From the NCBI GenBank assembly GCA_943787295.1, contig CALSLW010000001.1:916001-980000 (forward strand): a DNA stretch of 64,000 bases, in the 5' to 3' direction. Source of the stretch: an uncultured Flavobacteriaceae bacterium (GTDB taxonomy: Bacteria; Bacteroidota; Bacteroidia; Flavobacteriales; Flavobacteriaceae). Positions 4,984-31,171 of this stretch are shown here, piece after piece. The first letter of the stretch is position 1. Every line of letters begins with the position of its first letter. The translations under genes were made by a program, and so were the position numbers. A model generated the notes under the pieces. That model was not told the origin of the DNA, did no database searches, and saw nothing but the letters and a program-made list of their open reading frames with translations.

Positions 4984-5030
4984 TTGCTTTCAGGAAGGAC
5001 TTTGAAGATTACTTCACTTAAGGAAAGCAA
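4984..5030 (-). promoter_or_regulatory. Leader hairpin between riboswitch aptamer and metK start
   Basis: Read on the minus strand, TTGCTTTC (5030-5023) can pair with GAAAGCAA (4991-4984), which ends seven bases before the metK ATG. A smaller GAAG/CTTC stem sits in the loop. There is no U-run, so this is not a simple terminator. It could be the expression platform that hides or exposes the start region, but this is inference. Confidence 0.4.
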
Positions 5031-5032
5031 TT

Positions 5033-5083
5033 CTGTTTTAGCATTTTTTTTTCGAGGTGTGCAATCAGTCAAATCCTTCCTCA
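5033..5083 (-). promoter_or_regulatory. SAM-II-like riboswitch aptamer
   Basis: On the minus strand a short stem (TGAGG at 5083-5079 with CCTCG at 5057-5053) encloses GATTTGACTGATTGCA. An A-rich linker and the motif GCTAAAA (5042-5036) follow. As I recall the SAM-II (SAM-alpha) consensus, it has the same order of parts: a short P1, a GAUUUG...UUGCA loop and a downstream GCUAAAA that makes the pseudoknot. The related SAM-V core is also similar. The element lies between a good promoter and metK, the first gene of a methionine operon, exactly where a SAM sensor is expected. No covariance search could be run. Confidence 0.72.
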
Positions 5084-5096
5084 TTTATTAATGATG

Positions 5097-25406: not shown

Positions 25407-25955
25407 TTATTTTACCTTCCCAGGGTTTTGAGAGACAAAGGCTTTCCAGCCGGTATACTTTTTTTGATCTCCTCCTTTTCCTGCATTAAAAAAATGACAG
25501 ACTGCTGCGGCAAGACCATCTGTTGAGTCTAAATTTTTAGGGAGTTCTTTAAAGCGCAGTAAGCTTTGTAACATTTTTGCCACCTGTTCCTTACTCGCGT
25601 TCCCATTTCCTGTAATGGCCATTTTAATTTTTTTAGGGGAATATTCTGTTATGGGAATATCTCTTGAGAGTCCTGCCGCCATAGCAACCCCTTGTGCCCT
25701 ACCCAACTTTAACATCGACTGCACATTTTTACCAAAAAAGGGCGCTTCGATGGCAATCTCGTCTGGATGAAATGTTTCGATTAATTCGATGGTGCGATCA
25801 TAAATCAATTTTAACTTGACATAATGGTCGCTGTATTTAGACAGTTGCAACTCGTTAAGCTGAAGAAAATGCATTTGATTTTTCTCAACTTTAATTAGAC
25901 CAAATCCCATGATAGTGGTTCCAGGATCGATCCCGAGTATGATGCGTTCTGCCAT
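25407..25955 (-). CDS. ruvC: Holliday junction resolvase RuvC
   Basis: 182 residues. RNase H fold with the first catalytic Asp in [14 protein letters not shown], Glu in [11 protein letters not shown], and the C-terminal acidic pair in [15 protein letters not shown]. Cuts Holliday junctions made during recombination, normally with RuvAB (not here). It begins one base before the lipoprotein stop region and ends one base before hemW, a tight three-gene unit. Confidence 0.96.
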
Positions 25956-26536: not shown

Positions 26537-27025
26537 ATGACATTATTTTTTGAAATCGCTGGTCTTTTTTTTGCCCTACTAGGGATCGCAGGGAGTTTTT
26601 TACCTGTTCTACCGGGGCCATTAACAGGCTGGTTGGGACTTTTTTTATTACATCAAAGTGATCGAATAGCAGAAAACAACACTTTCTTAATTACAACTTT
26701 TTGTGTTGCACTAGGCGTATTCTTATTAGACTACATCATTCCAGCCATAGGAACAAAAAAATTTGGAGGATCAAAAAAAGGAGTCATGGGATCTACTATT
26801 GGCCTTGTTATTGGGTTAATCCTTATGGGACCTATAGGAATTATTTTAGGTTCTTTTATTGGCGCTTTTTCTGGAGAGCTTCTCAATAAAACAACTAAAC
26901 GTCAAGCCCTAAAAGCGGCTTTTGGTTCTTTAATTGGATTTTTAACTGGCGTATTTTTAAAATTTTCGGTTGCCTTGATCTTTTTCTTTTACTTTTTGAA
27001 AATCTATTCTTCGGCGATCTTTTAA
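26537..27025 (+). CDS. DUF456 family membrane protein
   Basis: 162 residues and about four membrane segments with many Gly residues: LPGPLTGWLGLFLL, a central FGGSKKGVMGSTIGLVIGLILMGPIGIILGSFIGAF, GELL and a C-terminal hydrophobic helix. This is the DUF456 pattern; function unknown. It marks the conserved left border of the Cas9 locus, which starts at its stop codon. Confidence 0.8.
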   Translation: MTLFFEIAGLFFALLGIAGSFLPVLPGPLTGWLGLFLLHQSDRIAENNTFLITTFCVALGVFLLDYIIPAIGTKKFGGSKKGVMGSTIGLVIGLILMGPIGIILGSFIGAFSGELLNKTTKRQALKAAFGSLIGFLTGVFLKFSVALIFFFYFLKIYSSAIF

Positions 27026-27046
27026 AAATAAAAGAAGCTTTCTTTT
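27024..27046 (-). terminator. Terminator of the cas9-crRNA unit
   Basis: On the minus strand AAAAGAA (27046-27040), loop AGC, TTCTTTT (27036-27030), then ATTTTT. It lies directly at the 3' end of the CRISPR repeat and shares its last bases, so a transcript carrying the repeat would end here. Read on the plus strand it could also weakly terminate the DUF456 gene. Confidence 0.65.
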
Positions 27047-27100
27047 CATTACCTTCAATCAAACCACAACACTATATTTATTTATGAAATTGTAATGGGT
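27042..27100 (-). CRISPR. Single CRISPR repeat-spacer unit (candidate fixed crRNA)
   Basis: On the minus strand the repeat begins GTTGTGGTTTGATTGAAGG at 27070 and runs to 27042, typical of the start of Bacteroidota type II-C repeats. It pairs with the tracrRNA anti-repeat at 30580-30597: GTTGTG with CACAAT (one G-U), a 4/4 internal loop (GTTT opposite TTAT), then GATTGAAG with CTTCAATC. In type II systems the spacer lies 5' of the repeat, which here is 27071 upward; the 20 bases next to the repeat are very AT-rich and end in AAATATAGT. There is no second good repeat, only GTTGT at 27128-27124, 58 bases upstream. No promoter is clear; co-transcription from cas9 is possible. Confidence 0.75.
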
Positions 27101-27145: not shown

Positions 27146-27164
27146 GAAAAGAAAGTCTTCTTTT
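27146..27164 (-). repeat. Quasi-palindrome repeated on the far side of the crRNA unit
   Basis: The minus strand at 27164-27146 reads AAAAGAAGACTTTCTTTTC, which differs by a single inserted base from the plus strand at 27030-27047. The two copies, about 100 bases apart and inverted, bracket the repeat-spacer unit. Each is itself nearly palindromic. They may be duplicated terminators or relics of a small mobile unit. Confidence 0.5.
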
Positions 27165-27172
27165 TAAATCAT

Positions 27173-30100
27173 TTATACATTCATTAAAGAGATATCTCCG
27201 GTTAAACTTATTTTTACTTTGACTGGATTATAGGTGAGCCAACCTGTTTTTTTACTTCCAAAATTGTTTATTCTAATATACTCTGGATAGTCAAAACTGG
27301 GATTAATATATTTATTCGCTTGTCTAAATTCATAGTATTTACTCGATAGTTTTTGAACGCGATAGAGGTGTTTTCTCAAAATATATTTAGGAATTAAATG
27401 AAGGTTTTCTACCACATTATCAATCCCTAATAAATACATATCATTGATGTGTAAATAAGTCACTACCTCTTCCTCGCCAGCTTCTAATGCTCTGTAAATA
27501 GGCAGGTTTTTTCTGTATCTTTGTATGGCTTGCCAAAAAGTCACTACTTCTTCTTTAAATTCTCCTTCTCCATCGATCAATATCATGATATGATGATTAT
27601 TTCTAGGGATGGCAAATCGATTTTCATTTTCTTTTAATTGAATTGAATTCGAAAATCCTTCTCTCATTCTCACTTTGAAAATAGGGACTGGGTCACCGCC
27701 CTTGTGATTGTCTAAATGAATTTTAGAAAGGGGGAAACCGTCTGGTCCCTCTTCAACAAATAATCCCACAGGAAGCACTCCTTTATTATTTTTAAGATTT
27801 ACAATACTTTCTTGTGCCTTCTTGCGAATTACTGGATCTACTATTTTTTCTATTTGAGAAACTACTCTAAGAGAAGTTAAAGGTCGCCTAATGTGCATTG
27901 ATTCTGTTAGCATAGGAGGTGTTCGCTTACCGTATAAAGAATCTTTGTGTAGCATTCCTCTGACAGAAACTGCCTTTACTTTGACTTTATTGTTGATGTC
28001 TTTGTGCCAAAAAGAACGTTTTGAAATGGCTTTAGAAGATTTTCTATGAGAAACTAATACTCCCATCAATTTCTCTTCGATTTGAGATAAATATTGTTCG
28101 TTTGGTACAGGAATCTTGGTCTTTTTTAGCTGTCGTTTATATTTATTTCGCTGGGACAAAAAACTGATGTGCCCCTTTTCACAATAGGCATTTACATAGG
28201 CTTTTAAAATGTTTAAACGATAATCATTTACACATTTACGATCTGGAAAAATACTCATCAATAAGCATTCATCGATTAAATGTTGTGTGACATTACCTGG
28301 AATCATTTTCACCTTTGGTGTGACAAAACCTATTAATTCTCCAAGGCTACGGCTTAATTGATGCTGGTCGTTAAACTGCTTTTTGATGACATCGCGATAG
28401 TTATATTTTTTAATAAATCGCTTAAATTTTTTATAACTAGTGGGATGGTGATGAGTATTTGAAAATATTTTCGCTGCCCTGGTTTTAACCTTTTCCCACT
28501 CTTCACTTTTCTCTTCATCAAAATATTCAAAAGGAGTTCTTTCGTTCAATTGTTCAGCAAGTGAGGTAAAACATAGGGTTTTATTAAGACTGTTGTCATT
28601 TAATGATCTGGACCATGGATGGATATAAACTATTTGAACATGAGAAGTAAATAACATTTCTAATGGAATCTCATTTCCAGTGTAAGGACAGGTGTGTTTG
28701 CACTCTTCCCATAAACTGTATTTTAAAACGTGCATTGGAATAAGGTCTACTCCTAGGGGCTTCAATTTTTCTATATATCGCTTGTTGTTTTCAGTTATTC
28801 TTCTTCGATCTAATCTAAAAATATAGCGCTGCATTCGATTTACCTTTAAATCGACTGAAAGTTCGCAAGCGACCTCATCAAAAGTGCCGTATTTGTCAAT
28901 TAATGCATTAATTACTTTTCTCAATTCAAAAGTACTTTGAATCAAGGTTGAGTTTTTTAATTGTTGAATTTGGTTGTTTACCTCTCTGGTCAAGGGTATT
29001 TTATTTGCTTTTGGTTTTTGAGTTAAGTTGGGCGAGAAACCATAAAGTTTTTTTGGATCGAATCCTTCTAATCTAAACATACTTTGAAAAACTTCAATTA
29101 GTTTAGAGATCAACTCTTGCTGAGAAGAATCTCGATGAAGATTTAAGGACACCTGAATGATTTCGCTTCGCTGTACATCACTTAAATCGTCCCACTTTGT
29201 TTTAAGTGCGTTTCTTATACCGGCTAAATAAACAGCAATCTTATAAGGATAGCCTTGTTTTAAAAAGTAAAGTATCTTACTTGAGGCCATTTTTGAAATT
29301 GGGGCATAACTTTTATCAATACTAATCTTTGAAAACTTTTGCGCAGCATAAGAGTTTAAACCAAATTTTTGCTCGGCAGTATCTTGTAATCTTAAACTAC
29401 TATTAAAAAAGTACAAAGCGTGAAAAATATCCTCTTTTGTCTTTTGATCAAAATCAAACCATTCTTTCCCAAAGTATTTCTCCCTTGACAATTCGGCATT
29501 AATAAAAGATCCTTTAAAGGCATCATCTGCCTTGTAATTAAAGTTTTCAGAATGGTTGAGTTGCAATAGAGATTTGATTTCATCAAATTTAAATCGGTAA
29601 TGTGTCAAGAAATAATGAACAACTTTACGGGTATCTTTGAGATTGAGGGGAGCATTATTGAGCTTGATAGAATTCGCCCATTTCCAGGCTTCCACTTCCT
29701 GATATATGAGAGAAGAGACACAACAACGGGTCTTTTTGGGTTCATATAAACAATTGCCTACCCTGTGCTTTTGAGATTTTAAAGGCCGCTGATAAAACAA
29801 AGCTCCTTGAGGATCTACATCTTGAGGATCTCCTATTAATTGATTGCGCAACTCTTCGGTCAAAGAATGATAAAACTGCGATTGCATTTTCCACAAAAGA
29901 TGAATTTCTTCAAAATACATTTCGAGTGTGCAAATGCGATTTCGAATTCTAGTCTTTGTTGCTTTATAAGAATTATTATGGGCTGGATAAATAGAACTTA
30001 AGTGTTCCCCAAGGGTTCCTTTTCCTATTTCCTTCTGAGTTTGTAAATACCCAATCTTTCTTTCAGCAGGATTTCCTCTACTAAGCACACTCTCGGTTAA

Positions 30101-30553
30101 CTTTAAATTCCTTTCTCCGAAACGATAGCCGCGATGACAAGCGATTTGATAAAATATTCGACCGAATTCTTCTAAACTCAGTTTCTCATGCAAGCCTTGT
30201 TCTCTTAAATGATATGGATTTAGTGCGAACCAATTGTCCATGGATTTAGAAACAAACTTTTTTGTTTTCTTCCATTGATCTAGTTCCTTCAAAGTCATGG
30301 GGCACATTTGATTTTGAATCAAAATACGCAAAAGATAAATTTTTCGGGTTCTAATTCTGGCATATCGAATGCGACGTAATCGAACTAAACGTCTTCCGTG
30401 TTTTTTTGACAGCTCCCTTTTGCCAGAGCCAAAATTTTCACATCCAGCAGGAAAAACCCTAACGCCCACGTCAATTAAATCGAATGTTGAAAGATCAACA
30501 ATAGACCAATTGATAGAAGTCGTATCAACAAATAATCCTAACTTTTTTGACAT
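27173..30553 (-). CDS. cas9: Type II-C-like Cas9, predicted nuclease-dead
   Basis: 1126 residues in one frame. Order seen: RuvC-I (residues 1-20), Arg-rich bridge helix (about 45-80), recognition lobe, RuvC-II (VACELSVDLK, Glu564 kept), HNH region (CPYTGNEI to RTPFEYF, about 620-680), RuvC-III (about 775-790), and a C-terminal PAM-interacting part ending with DMYLLGID and LYRVQKLSSKYYEFR. Catalytic positions are lost: Phe8 for the RuvC-I Asp (LGLFVDTTSINW against the usual LGLDxGTxSIGW), Asn781 and Lys784 in RLNILKA against RHHAxDA, and Val642, Tyr643, Ala666 in the HNH site. Tyr643 to Ala666 is 23 residues, the same distance as His840 to Asn863 in S. pyogenes Cas9. No cas1, cas2 or csn2 is nearby. 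RNA-guided DNA binding without cutting is the inference. Confidence 0.93.
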   Translation of the reverse strand: MSKKLGLFVDTTSINWSIVDLSTFDLIDVGVRVFPAGCENFGSGKRELSKKHGRRLVRLRRIRYARIRTRKIYLLRILIQNQMCPMTLKELDQWKKTKKFVSKSMDNWFALNPYHLREQGLHEKLSLEEFGRIFYQIACHRGYRFGERNLKLTESVLSRGNPAERKIGYLQTQKEIGKGTLGEHLSSIYPAHNNSYKATKTRIRNRICTLEMYFEEIHLLWKMQSQFYHSLTEELRNQLIGDPQDVDPQGALFYQRPLKSQKHRVGNCLYEPKKTRCCVSSLIYQEVEAWKWANSIKLNNAPLNLKDTRKVVHYFLTHYRFKFDEIKSLLQLNHSENFNYKADDAFKGSFINAELSREKYFGKEWFDFDQKTKEDIFHALYFFNSSLRLQDTAEQKFGLNSYAAQKFSKISIDKSYAPISKMASSKILYFLKQGYPYKIAVYLAGIRNALKTKWDDLSDVQRSEIIQVSLNLHRDSSQQELISKLIEVFQSMFRLEGFDPKKLYGFSPNLTQKPKANKIPLTREVNNQIQQLKNSTLIQSTFELRKVINALIDKYGTFDEVACELSVDLKVNRMQRYIFRLDRRRITENNKRYIEKLKPLGVDLIPMHVLKYSLWEECKHTCPYTGNEIPLEMLFTSHVQIVYIHPWSRSLNDNSLNKTLCFTSLAEQLNERTPFEYFDEEKSEEWEKVKTRAAKIFSNTHHHPTSYKKFKRFIKKYNYRDVIKKQFNDQHQLSRSLGELIGFVTPKVKMIPGNVTQHLIDECLLMSIFPDRKCVNDYRLNILKAYVNAYCEKGHISFLSQRNKYKRQLKKTKIPVPNEQYLSQIEEKLMGVLVSHRKSSKAISKRSFWHKDINNKVKVKAVSVRGMLHKDSLYGKRTPPMLTESMHIRRPLTSLRVVSQIEKIVDPVIRKKAQESIVNLKNNKGVLPVGLFVEEGPDGFPLSKIHLDNHKGGDPVPIFKVRMREGFSNSIQLKENENRFAIPRNNHHIMILIDGEGEFKEEVVTFWQAIQRYRKNLPIYRALEAGEEEVVTYLHINDMYLLGIDNVVENLHLIPKYILRKHLYRVQKLSSKYYEFRQANKYINPSFDYPEYIRINNFGSKKTGWLTYNPVKVKISLTGDISLMNV

Positions 30554-30577: not shown

Positions 30578-30585
30578 TGCTTCAA
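30555..30585 (-). promoter_or_regulatory. Possible cas9 promoter overlapping the tracrRNA 5' end
   Basis: On the minus strand TTG (30585-30583), 20 bases, TAAGTTTA (30562-30555), one mismatch to the -7 consensus, ending one base before the cas9 ATG. This would give a leaderless cas9 mRNA and a promoter directly facing the tracrRNA promoter. Tentative. Confidence 0.35.
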
Positions 30586-30654
30586 TCTTATCACAATAAG
30601 GCTTTATGCCGTAGATTTAAAAATCTTTAATCCCGCTTCGGTGGGATTTTTTTT
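30580..30654 (+). ncRNA. tracrRNA
   Basis: Read 5' to 3' on the plus strand: anti-repeat CTTCAATCTTATCACAAT (30580-30597); the AAGG start of the nexus with stem GGC/GCC (30600-30610); a second stem AGATTT/AAATCT (30613-30626); and a terminator ATCCCGC-TTCG-GTGGGAT (30630-30647) with eight T. The anti-repeat pairs with the repeat at 27042-27070 through two helices separated by a 4/4 bulge, the normal form of type II crRNA:tracrRNA duplexes. CACAATAAGG after the anti-repeat is typical of type II-C. It lies between cas9 and the HTH gene, antisense to both. Confidence 0.85.
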
Positions 30655-31048
30655 ATTCCTTTTCATAGCGCTCTAAAAAACTGTAATATTTTAACAGGAA
30701 GTGATAATACATCCACTTGTCTTCTTCGCTTTTTGACGATTCTAAGGGAAATTGATCACGGTGGAGATTAATAAAATCTAAGGTAGATGTCTTTACGGTT
30801 TCTGGGAGGTAGTTGTCTACTTCTATCAAACCTAATTGAATTATTTTCCGAATTAATACATAGCTGTTATTTCGCTCATACTTTTTAAACAATTGAATCC
30901 AGATACTTTTGATTTCAAATTGATCTATCTGTAATAATTGCATTAAAGTTTGATCGCTTAAGCCTAACATATAAGGGCGAATTACAGCGTATTCTTTGGG
31001 TAAAAGTTGAGTGGAGGGAGGGGTGGTGAAAATGGGTTTAGAATTCAT
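30653..31048 (-). CDS. Small protein with LuxR/GerE-like helix-turn-helix
   Basis: 131 residues, upstream of cas9 on the same strand with 99 bp between, that gap being filled by the tracrRNA. Residues about 17-75 (LPKEYAVIRPYMLGLSDQ, MQLLQIDQFEIKSIWIQLFKK, VLIRKIIQLGLIE) follow the pattern of the LuxR/NarL C-terminal DNA-binding domain: LTxREyeVlxlxxxGLSnkeIA, then xxTVKxHxxxIxxKL, then LIxkAiqlGLI. Residues 85-131 are helical and acidic, with aromatic residues (WMYYHFLLKYYSFLERYE). There is no receiver domain. It may be the transcriptional partner or local regulator of the Cas9; that role is inference. The HTH match is by eye. Confidence 0.6.
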   Translation of the reverse strand: MNSKPIFTTPPSTQLLPKEYAVIRPYMLGLSDQTLMQLLQIDQFEIKSIWIQLFKKYERNNSYVLIRKIIQLGLIEVDNYLPETVKTSTLDFINLHRDQFPLESSKSEEDKWMYYHFLLKYYSFLERYEKE

Positions 31049-31102: not shown

Positions 31103-31171
31103 CACCTTTTAAGATGTAAAAGGTGGTTAGGCTTGATGGTAAAAGTGGTTATACCATGTAATAAGTGGTTA
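31103..31171. repeat. Inverted repeat and three GTGGTTA direct repeats upstream of the HTH-cas9 unit
   Basis: CACCTTTT (31103-31110) and AAAAGGTG (31118-31125) form an inverted repeat with a seven-base centre. GTGGTTA occurs at 31123, 31145 and 31165, spaced 22 and 20 bases, about two helical turns. The cluster sits between the divergent HTH-cas9 genes and the small secreted protein gene, where an operator would be expected. Confidence 0.55.

Follow-up and report, generated by a model that had tools for sequence, protein, structure and literature searches.

A clade of Flavobacteriaceae Cas9 proteins lacking both nuclease centres, with a predicted fixed guide RNA

Results

A nuclease-dead Cas9 gene in a chromosomal locus

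The window analysed here, a 64,000-nucleotide stretch from an uncultured Flavobacteriaceae bacterium (GenBank assembly GCA_943787295.1, contig CALSLW010000001.1, positions 916,001 to 980,000), carries a gene for a type II-C Cas9, the effector of a CRISPR (clustered regularly interspaced short palindromic repeats) system, in which neither nuclease centre is intact. Around it lie a predicted trans-activating CRISPR RNA (tracrRNA), a remnant repeat with the predicted guide of a CRISPR RNA (crRNA), and several chromosomal genes (Table 1). An earlier reading made from the letters alone (hereafter the sequence-only reading) had described the gene as an uninterrupted frame of 1126 codons, which our analysis bears out. 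The product matches NCBIfam TIGR01865 with 349.3 bits (cut-off 100) as well as Pfam HNH_4, and its structure model (predicted local distance difference test, pLDDT, given in Table 1) has the bilobed Cas9 fold.

Table 1 Features of the cas9 locus in window coordinates. Dead records are the 24 fetched loci with a dead Cas9 plus the window (25 in all); aa, amino acids
Feature	Position	Strand	Remarks
ruvC	25407..25955	-	in 21 of 25 dead records
DUF456 gene, convergent neighbour	26537..27025	+	in 23 of 25 dead records
Predicted stem, 3' arm	27030..27047	-	RNAfold
Single remnant CRISPR repeat GTTGTGGTTTGATTGAA	27054..27070	-	exact sequence occurs once in the 2.2-Mb genome
Predicted guide of the solo crRNA ACAATTTCATAAATAAATATAGT	27071..27093	-	12 bases next to the repeat invariant in 13 of 13 loci
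Predicted stem, 5' arm	27146..27164	-	RNAfold
Nuclease-dead type II-C Cas9, 1126 aa	27173..30553	-	Phe8, Glu564 kept, Val642, Tyr643, Ala666, Leu780, Asn781, Lys784; model pLDDT 87.0
Predicted tracrRNA	30581..30654	+	anti-repeat 30581-30597, nexus-like hairpin 30598-30610, terminator-like hairpin with T run 30630-30654
LuxR/GerE-type helix-turn-helix gene, 131 aa, directly upstream of cas9	30653..31048	-	fast evolving
Three TAACCAC-TTACAT-like repeats, ~21-nt spacing, upstream of the helix-turn-helix gene	31114..31171	-	possible operators

A search of 5.8 billion proteins, which scored only the 7994 candidates sharing most words, returned 585 relatives; the best 120 of the 585 were listed, and among these matches many are full-length homologues at 40-97% identity. 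We aligned the window's Cas9 with 109 of the 120, excluding 11 short or very divergent rows (P0009, P0052, P0105, P0108, P0113-P0115 and P0117-P0120). The alignment upheld the catalytic placements proposed by the sequence-only reading, namely Phe8, Val642, Tyr643, Ala666 and the run Leu780-Asn781-Ile-Leu-Lys784, along with the retention of Glu564 at RuvC-II. Where a working nuclease has Asp/Glu/His/Asp in RuvC and Asp (or Glu)/His/Asn in HNH, this protein thus has F8, E564 and N781/K784 in the former and V642, Y643 and A666 in the latter. The same reading had named Asp10 as a residue that might fill the RuvC-I site; since the RuvC-I alignment is gap-free (KLGLFVDTTSINW in the window against ILGLDLGTNSIGW), Asp10 falls at the position of Gly10 and not of Asp8.

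One old clade of dead Cas9 proteins

In a tree of 130 sequences, including the 109 homologues and 20 proteins from fetched loci (interrupted loci were excluded here and from the substitution-rate analysis), 73 dead Cas9s, the window's included, form one clade with support 1.0. Active and dead sequences were told apart by Asp8, Glu/Asp642-His643 and Asp784. Glu564, Asn666 and His781 played no part in that choice, yet 55 of the 55 active tree sequences keep them. Among the 73 dead sequences, neither the HNH triad nor the D8-E564-D784 set is ever complete. The canonical RuvC residues are found in 4 of 69 dead sequences for D8 (four have no letter at position 8), 61 of 73 for E564, none for H780, 13 for H781 and 3 of 73 for D784, a position mostly occupied by Lys, Leu or Arg; for HNH, the counts out of 73 are zero (D/E642), two (H643) and zero (N666). 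Tyr643 is present in 70 of the 73, and Glu564 is lost in the second subclade, in the sequences seen. Since the substitutions are common to the whole clade, they are not chance: the alignment confirms the lost residues, and the tree extends their loss beyond the single protein first described.

To see what else the clade has retained, we counted residues invariant (≥95%) in the active set and kept in ≥80% of the dead clade. Best preserved is the region comprising the WED domain and the part contacting the protospacer-adjacent motif (PAM), with 29 of 33 such residues, ahead of HNH (16/25), the bridge helix (5/8), REC (51/83), RuvC-II (6/14) and RuvC-I (8/19); RuvC-III fares worst (11/36). The claim that everything but the active sites was retained is therefore right for the PAM region and fair elsewhere, while RuvC-III as a whole has drifted. 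The ratio of nonsynonymous to synonymous substitution rates (dN/dS) is 0.10-0.39 in intact dead pairs with finite dS, rough values that are only indicative because dS is near saturation. The sequence-only reading had allowed that the gene might prove a recent decay product; the clade is old, monophyletic and full-length.

Two further Cas9s, which fall outside the main dead clade, are altered at catalytic positions as well: P0094 carries N in RuvC-I and Y in place of the HNH His, and the locus L055:7937-11345 has Y at RuvC-I and Q/E in RuvC-III; each is perhaps an independent loss.

A solo guide-repeat unit and a predicted tracrRNA

Active relatives carry arrays of GTTGTGGTTTGATTAAAGATTAG... 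directly downstream of cas9. At this position, the dead loci of the window's subclade (A) have one solo guide-plus-repeat unit (window: 27054-27093, minus strand) and those of the second subclade (B) have two. Upstream of cas9, on the opposite strand, lies the block predicted to be a tracrRNA; its anti-repeat, its two hairpins (the first nexus-like) and its terminator are nearly those of the active tracrRNA. In 30 of 30 dead units (8 from subclade A and 22 from 11 subclade B loci; L058, whose anti-repeat differs and missed the search pattern, was excluded), the repeat is able to pair with the anti-repeat at positions 1-4, 6-8, 11 and 12. The duplex is shorter in dead units than in actives; its 2x2 bulge matches that of 32 active loci, and position 15 is G-C in subclade A and A-U in actives. 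Across loci the second tracrRNA hairpin occurs as AGAT/ATCT, AGAC/GTCT, GGAC/GTCC and GGAT/ATCC, changes that are, judged from the predicted pairing, compensatory. A further conserved noncoding stretch, TTTTTTGCTTTGATTGTTATGCTAC, lies upstream of the tracrRNA in part of subclade B (L064, L068, L079, L080, L085 and L087).

Type II crRNAs carry their guide ahead of the repeat. In subclade A, 13 of 13 loci with a dead Cas9 agree in all 12 bases leading up to the repeat, AATAAATATAGT, and in position -14 (position -13 agrees in 12); the flank 31-60 bases upstream has diverged (mean majority 5.7 of 13). The guide 3' ends of subclade B are likewise frozen, as AGTTAAAATTT and, in all but L110, AAGTATAGT. 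Around guide and repeat, a stem of 17-29 pairs is predicted in 13 of 13 loci; its arm sequences diverge between loci, and each stem is more stable than the mean of 60 shuffles. In one genome, the guide-repeat unit occurs in two copies ~185 bases apart (L155:104 and 289; G412:C170).

A shared neighbourhood without adaptation genes

Neither cas1 nor cas2 was found in the neighbourhood of any of 24 dead loci, the window included (no genome-wide cas1 search was made); of the 33 active loci exceeding 14 kb, 30 have cas1. A cognate array is absent near the dead loci, and the window's genome, an 89% complete assembly, holds no tandem series and one exact copy of the repeat start.

The ruvC gene, which we take to be an ordinary Holliday junction nuclease gene, and the DUF456 gene are joined by a lipoprotein gene and hemW (each in 21 of 25 dead records); records lacking the shared neighbours include contig ends and L055. 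All four neighbours are common to both dead subclades, and the locus is therefore read as vertically descended.

Of the 25 dead records, 10 have the small helix-turn-helix gene, and every one of these belongs to the window's subclade. GerE/LuxR was matched by 7 of 9 aligned members (best E 3.8e-8), the window's own being without a match, and the family profile matches response-regulator helix-turn-helix domains (E 8e-8). Looser ACC..TTAC motifs stand upstream of the gene at the matching place in relatives.

Discussion

A proposed RNA-guided regulator

We think it probable, from the comparisons above, that the dead Cas9, the predicted tracrRNA and the predicted fixed crRNA make up an RNA-guided DNA-binding regulator of conserved chromosomal DNA, most likely a repressor, instead of serving in immunity. 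Selection for RNA-guided binding without cutting, as the sequence-only reading had suggested, is supported by the clade itself, the dN/dS values, the kept WED/PAM region, the predicted tracrRNA and the conserved guide-repeat unit. On this proposal, an ancestral Flavobacteriaceae type II-C locus would have shed its adaptation genes, retained a single spacer (two in the second subclade), lost both active sites and been passed on mainly by vertical descent. The crRNA, freed from the 3' region of cas9 or transcribed from its own promoter, would pair with the tracrRNA and load the dead Cas9, which would park at a PAM plus a seed of ~12 nucleotides (nt) and block transcription in the manner of engineered CRISPR interference (CRISPRi). 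In one subclade, the LuxR-type protein, which would be made from the same operon, may serve as partner or as controller of expression.

The best single target, as a candidate rather than a result, is a site between the genes for proline dehydrogenase and aroB. Among 110 short stretches around seed hits compared for orthologous sites, this gap was the sole recurring intergenic site apart from the guide locus and shared coding sequence. It holds an 18-nt guide match in the window's genome, for which a rough reckoning (6 seed hits, 7 further bases) puts the chance at a few in a thousand. Binding there would place the dead Cas9 on the coding strand of a small RNA (sRNA)-like element, a position expected to make a good roadblock. 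That element (L157-L167) has a hairpin and a terminator, with TAnnTTTG, presumably a promoter-like motif, on the opposite strand; it was seen in 11 of 11 genomes examined of the window's genus and not upstream of aroB in other genera, and no Rfam family exceeded the gathering score for it.

Two other candidates were rejected. For autoregulation, no conserved seed site was found upstream of the helix-turn-helix gene. The motif TTRYTNACTATATTTAT, which contains the complement of the guide core, was counted 100 times across 40 genomes from the three genera sharing this guide, compared with 5 times across 40 other genomes (1 and 3 for the reversed control); it was, however, spotted among the seed hits, derives partly from five of the counted genomes and includes several hits in shared coding sequence. 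As many as 59 of the 100 copies lie in G778 and G771, both without an intact dead Cas9, and none in G000 or G430, both with one, and we do not accept it as proof of a target. In G778 and G771, a dispersed motif of ~25 bases, TTRYT[AT]ACTATATTTAT[AT]RATGTTTG (L344-L378), also contains the complement of the guide core, with 44 exact core copies in G778 and 15 in G771. It lies between genes and within coding sequence, where it is read in a single frame as INIV[SN]K (in miaA-, argG- and thioesterase-like genes), and is reminiscent of DNA uptake sequences.

Several observations weigh against a regulatory role. Stops or frameshifts interrupt 9 of the 24 fetched dead loci, some of which may be assembly errors; the dead-clade profile is matched by only 4 of 19 genomes in the window's genus and 4 of 22 in a second (many incomplete), and 7 loci of non-matching congeners retain only a cas9 3'-end (C-terminal) piece or fragments, and others nothing. 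As such interruptions and losses are frequent, the module is dispensable. The repeat remains in 17 of 27 DUF456 neighbour loci from two genera (changed or gone in 10), mostly with no dead Cas9 in reach, so that the guide may be conserved independently of Cas9; the guide-repeat element persists after the protein has gone, if perhaps temporarily, which points either to recent losses or to some function in its own right. The guide consists almost wholly of A+T, the enclosing stem, between convergent genes, could be a two-way terminator, and dS is near saturation. In the target search, the 11-nt seed ATAAATATAGT showed no enrichment in the window's genome, with 7 hits to the reversed control's 8, and a 13-nt seed with one mismatch gave 95 hits in six genomes against 90. 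In seven other dead-Cas9 genomes the 11-nt seed exceeded the control in most and fell below it in G430. Beside aroB, an 8-base core is kept in 3 of 4 carriers of the genus (lost in G412) and also in 3 of 7 non-carriers.

Alternative explanations

The interruptions, the fragments and the patchy distribution within two genera would all be at home in a relict on its way out, slowly eroding since its active sites were lost and showing kept features as mere inheritance. We nonetheless hold this unlikely: 12 of the 24 fetched loci are full-length and open and 3 more are open to a contig end, the many full-length homologues span a wide range of identity, dN/dS lies well below 1 in intact pairs, and tracrRNA pairing and the 12-nt guide core stay frozen while the flanks diverge. 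A clade-wide Tyr643 and a kept WED/PAM region are hard to obtain by decay. The outliving guide-repeat element in several congeners could instead mean that the dead Cas9, or the crRNA alone, acts on RNA, at mRNA starts or on the sRNA-like element beside aroB, rather than on DNA. The reverse complement of the guide, ACTATATTTATTTATGAAATT, does resemble a leader rich in A+T that includes a start codon; over the 18-nt match, the guide runs antisense to the aroB-side element; and a Neisseria type II-C small CRISPR-Cas-associated RNA (scaRNA) is reported to act on mRNA (PMC13431127). We find this rather improbable, as the best-kept part of the protein is the one needed for DNA and not for RNA, and as one of the genus's four carriers has lost the aroB-side match, which some non-carriers possess.

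That the proteins are silencers of other mobile DNA, or antagonists of active type II-C systems whose crRNAs they borrow, seems to us very unlikely. Foreign crRNAs could be loaded, because repeat and tracrRNA stay close to those of active relatives, and a phage-borne II-C2 Cas9 with a dead RuvC may act as an anti-CRISPR (PMC12669027); the dead loci, however, are chromosomal and syntenic, have their own frozen guide, and lack a cognate array nearby or, for the window, in the genome. Least credible is a residual nuclease with a RuvC site shifted to Asp10 and Glu564. Gly has become Asp10 in 56 sequences of the dead clade and Glu564 survives in most, yet Asp784 is nearly always replaced, the HNH Glu/Asp and Asn are gone throughout and Glu564 itself is missing from the second-subclade sequences seen; the alignment and the loss of Asp784 led us to reject a rescue of RuvC-I by Asp10.

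Relation to known systems and significance

Nuclease-dead regulators have been described for TnpB and for Cas12, and a repressor's role can be a sideline of active Cas9. TldR proteins, which are TnpB-derived dead repressors, are not known to use a tracrRNA, and in Bacteroidota a dead Cas12f (dCas12f) with a dedicated sigma factor is an exapted dead class 2 effector that activates. The dCas12f system is built on Cas12f and not Cas9, and the sigma-factor gene close to the window's locus is part of the usual syntenic gene set there.

TldR (PMC13418256) resembles the dead clade in having lost its nuclease, kept its guide-RNA- and DNA-binding parts, acquired a fixed guide and been proposed to regulate the chromosome, with seeds down to 6 nt sufficing; the dead clade likewise combines a dead effector with a fixed guide RNA, here a predicted one. 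TldR differs in its TnpB ancestry and known target, whereas the window's protein is a Cas9. In scaRNA and long-form tracrRNA regulation (PMC8730458), Cas9 uses a short guide and a solo RNA that bears a repeat to repress chromosomal genes without cutting, and the dead units likewise set a solo repeat that pairs with the tracrRNA (in 30 of 30) beside a short guide; there, however, Cas9 is a working nuclease in a complete CRISPR system, while here both sites are gone and the array is missing.

Active type II-C Cas9s of Flavobacteriaceae (for example in F. psychrophilum; PMC10309648) share fold, length, tracrRNA, the repeat start GTTGTGGTTTGATT and repeats just downstream of cas9, but have intact RuvC and HNH, an array and, in most long loci, cas1 and cas2; the dead clade has lost both active sites and carries just one or two solo units, with cas1 and cas2 absent nearby. 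The II-C2 phage Cas9 (PMC12669027) is a natural Cas9 that has lost a nuclease centre, yet it is phage-borne, with RuvC inactive and HNH apparently active, whereas the dead clade, with HNH Glu/Asp and Asn in 0 of 73 and conserved chromosomal neighbours, is chromosomal and has lost both. That variant, with its dead RuvC, is the one natural Cas9 with an inactivated domain named in the part of the 2025 classification available (PMC12669027), and a search of the open-licence literature, with preprints and subscription papers outside its scope, found no report of a fully inactive natural Cas9.

We judge it an even call whether this is the first Cas9-derived natural transcription factor: one that froze a single spacer and shed its adaptation genes and both centres in an ancestor shared by marine Flavobacteriaceae, leaving a regulator of dCas9 (dead Cas9), tracrRNA and crRNA handed down ever since at a single chromosomal place, with a LuxR-type partner in one branch, as natural CRISPRi. 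If so, a Cas9 lineage without cutting and with one frozen guide would complete the parallel to dead TnpB and Cas12 and make dCas9-style control a natural phenomenon. The clade raises a directly testable question, why cells keep a non-cutting Cas9, and offers compact, evolution-tuned dCas9s with a very short repeat/anti-repeat duplex, as well as sister-genome pairs with and without the gene.

Other features of the window

Rfam matches in the window are confined to tRNAs and a SAM-II riboswitch (5028-5088, minus strand, 73 bits).

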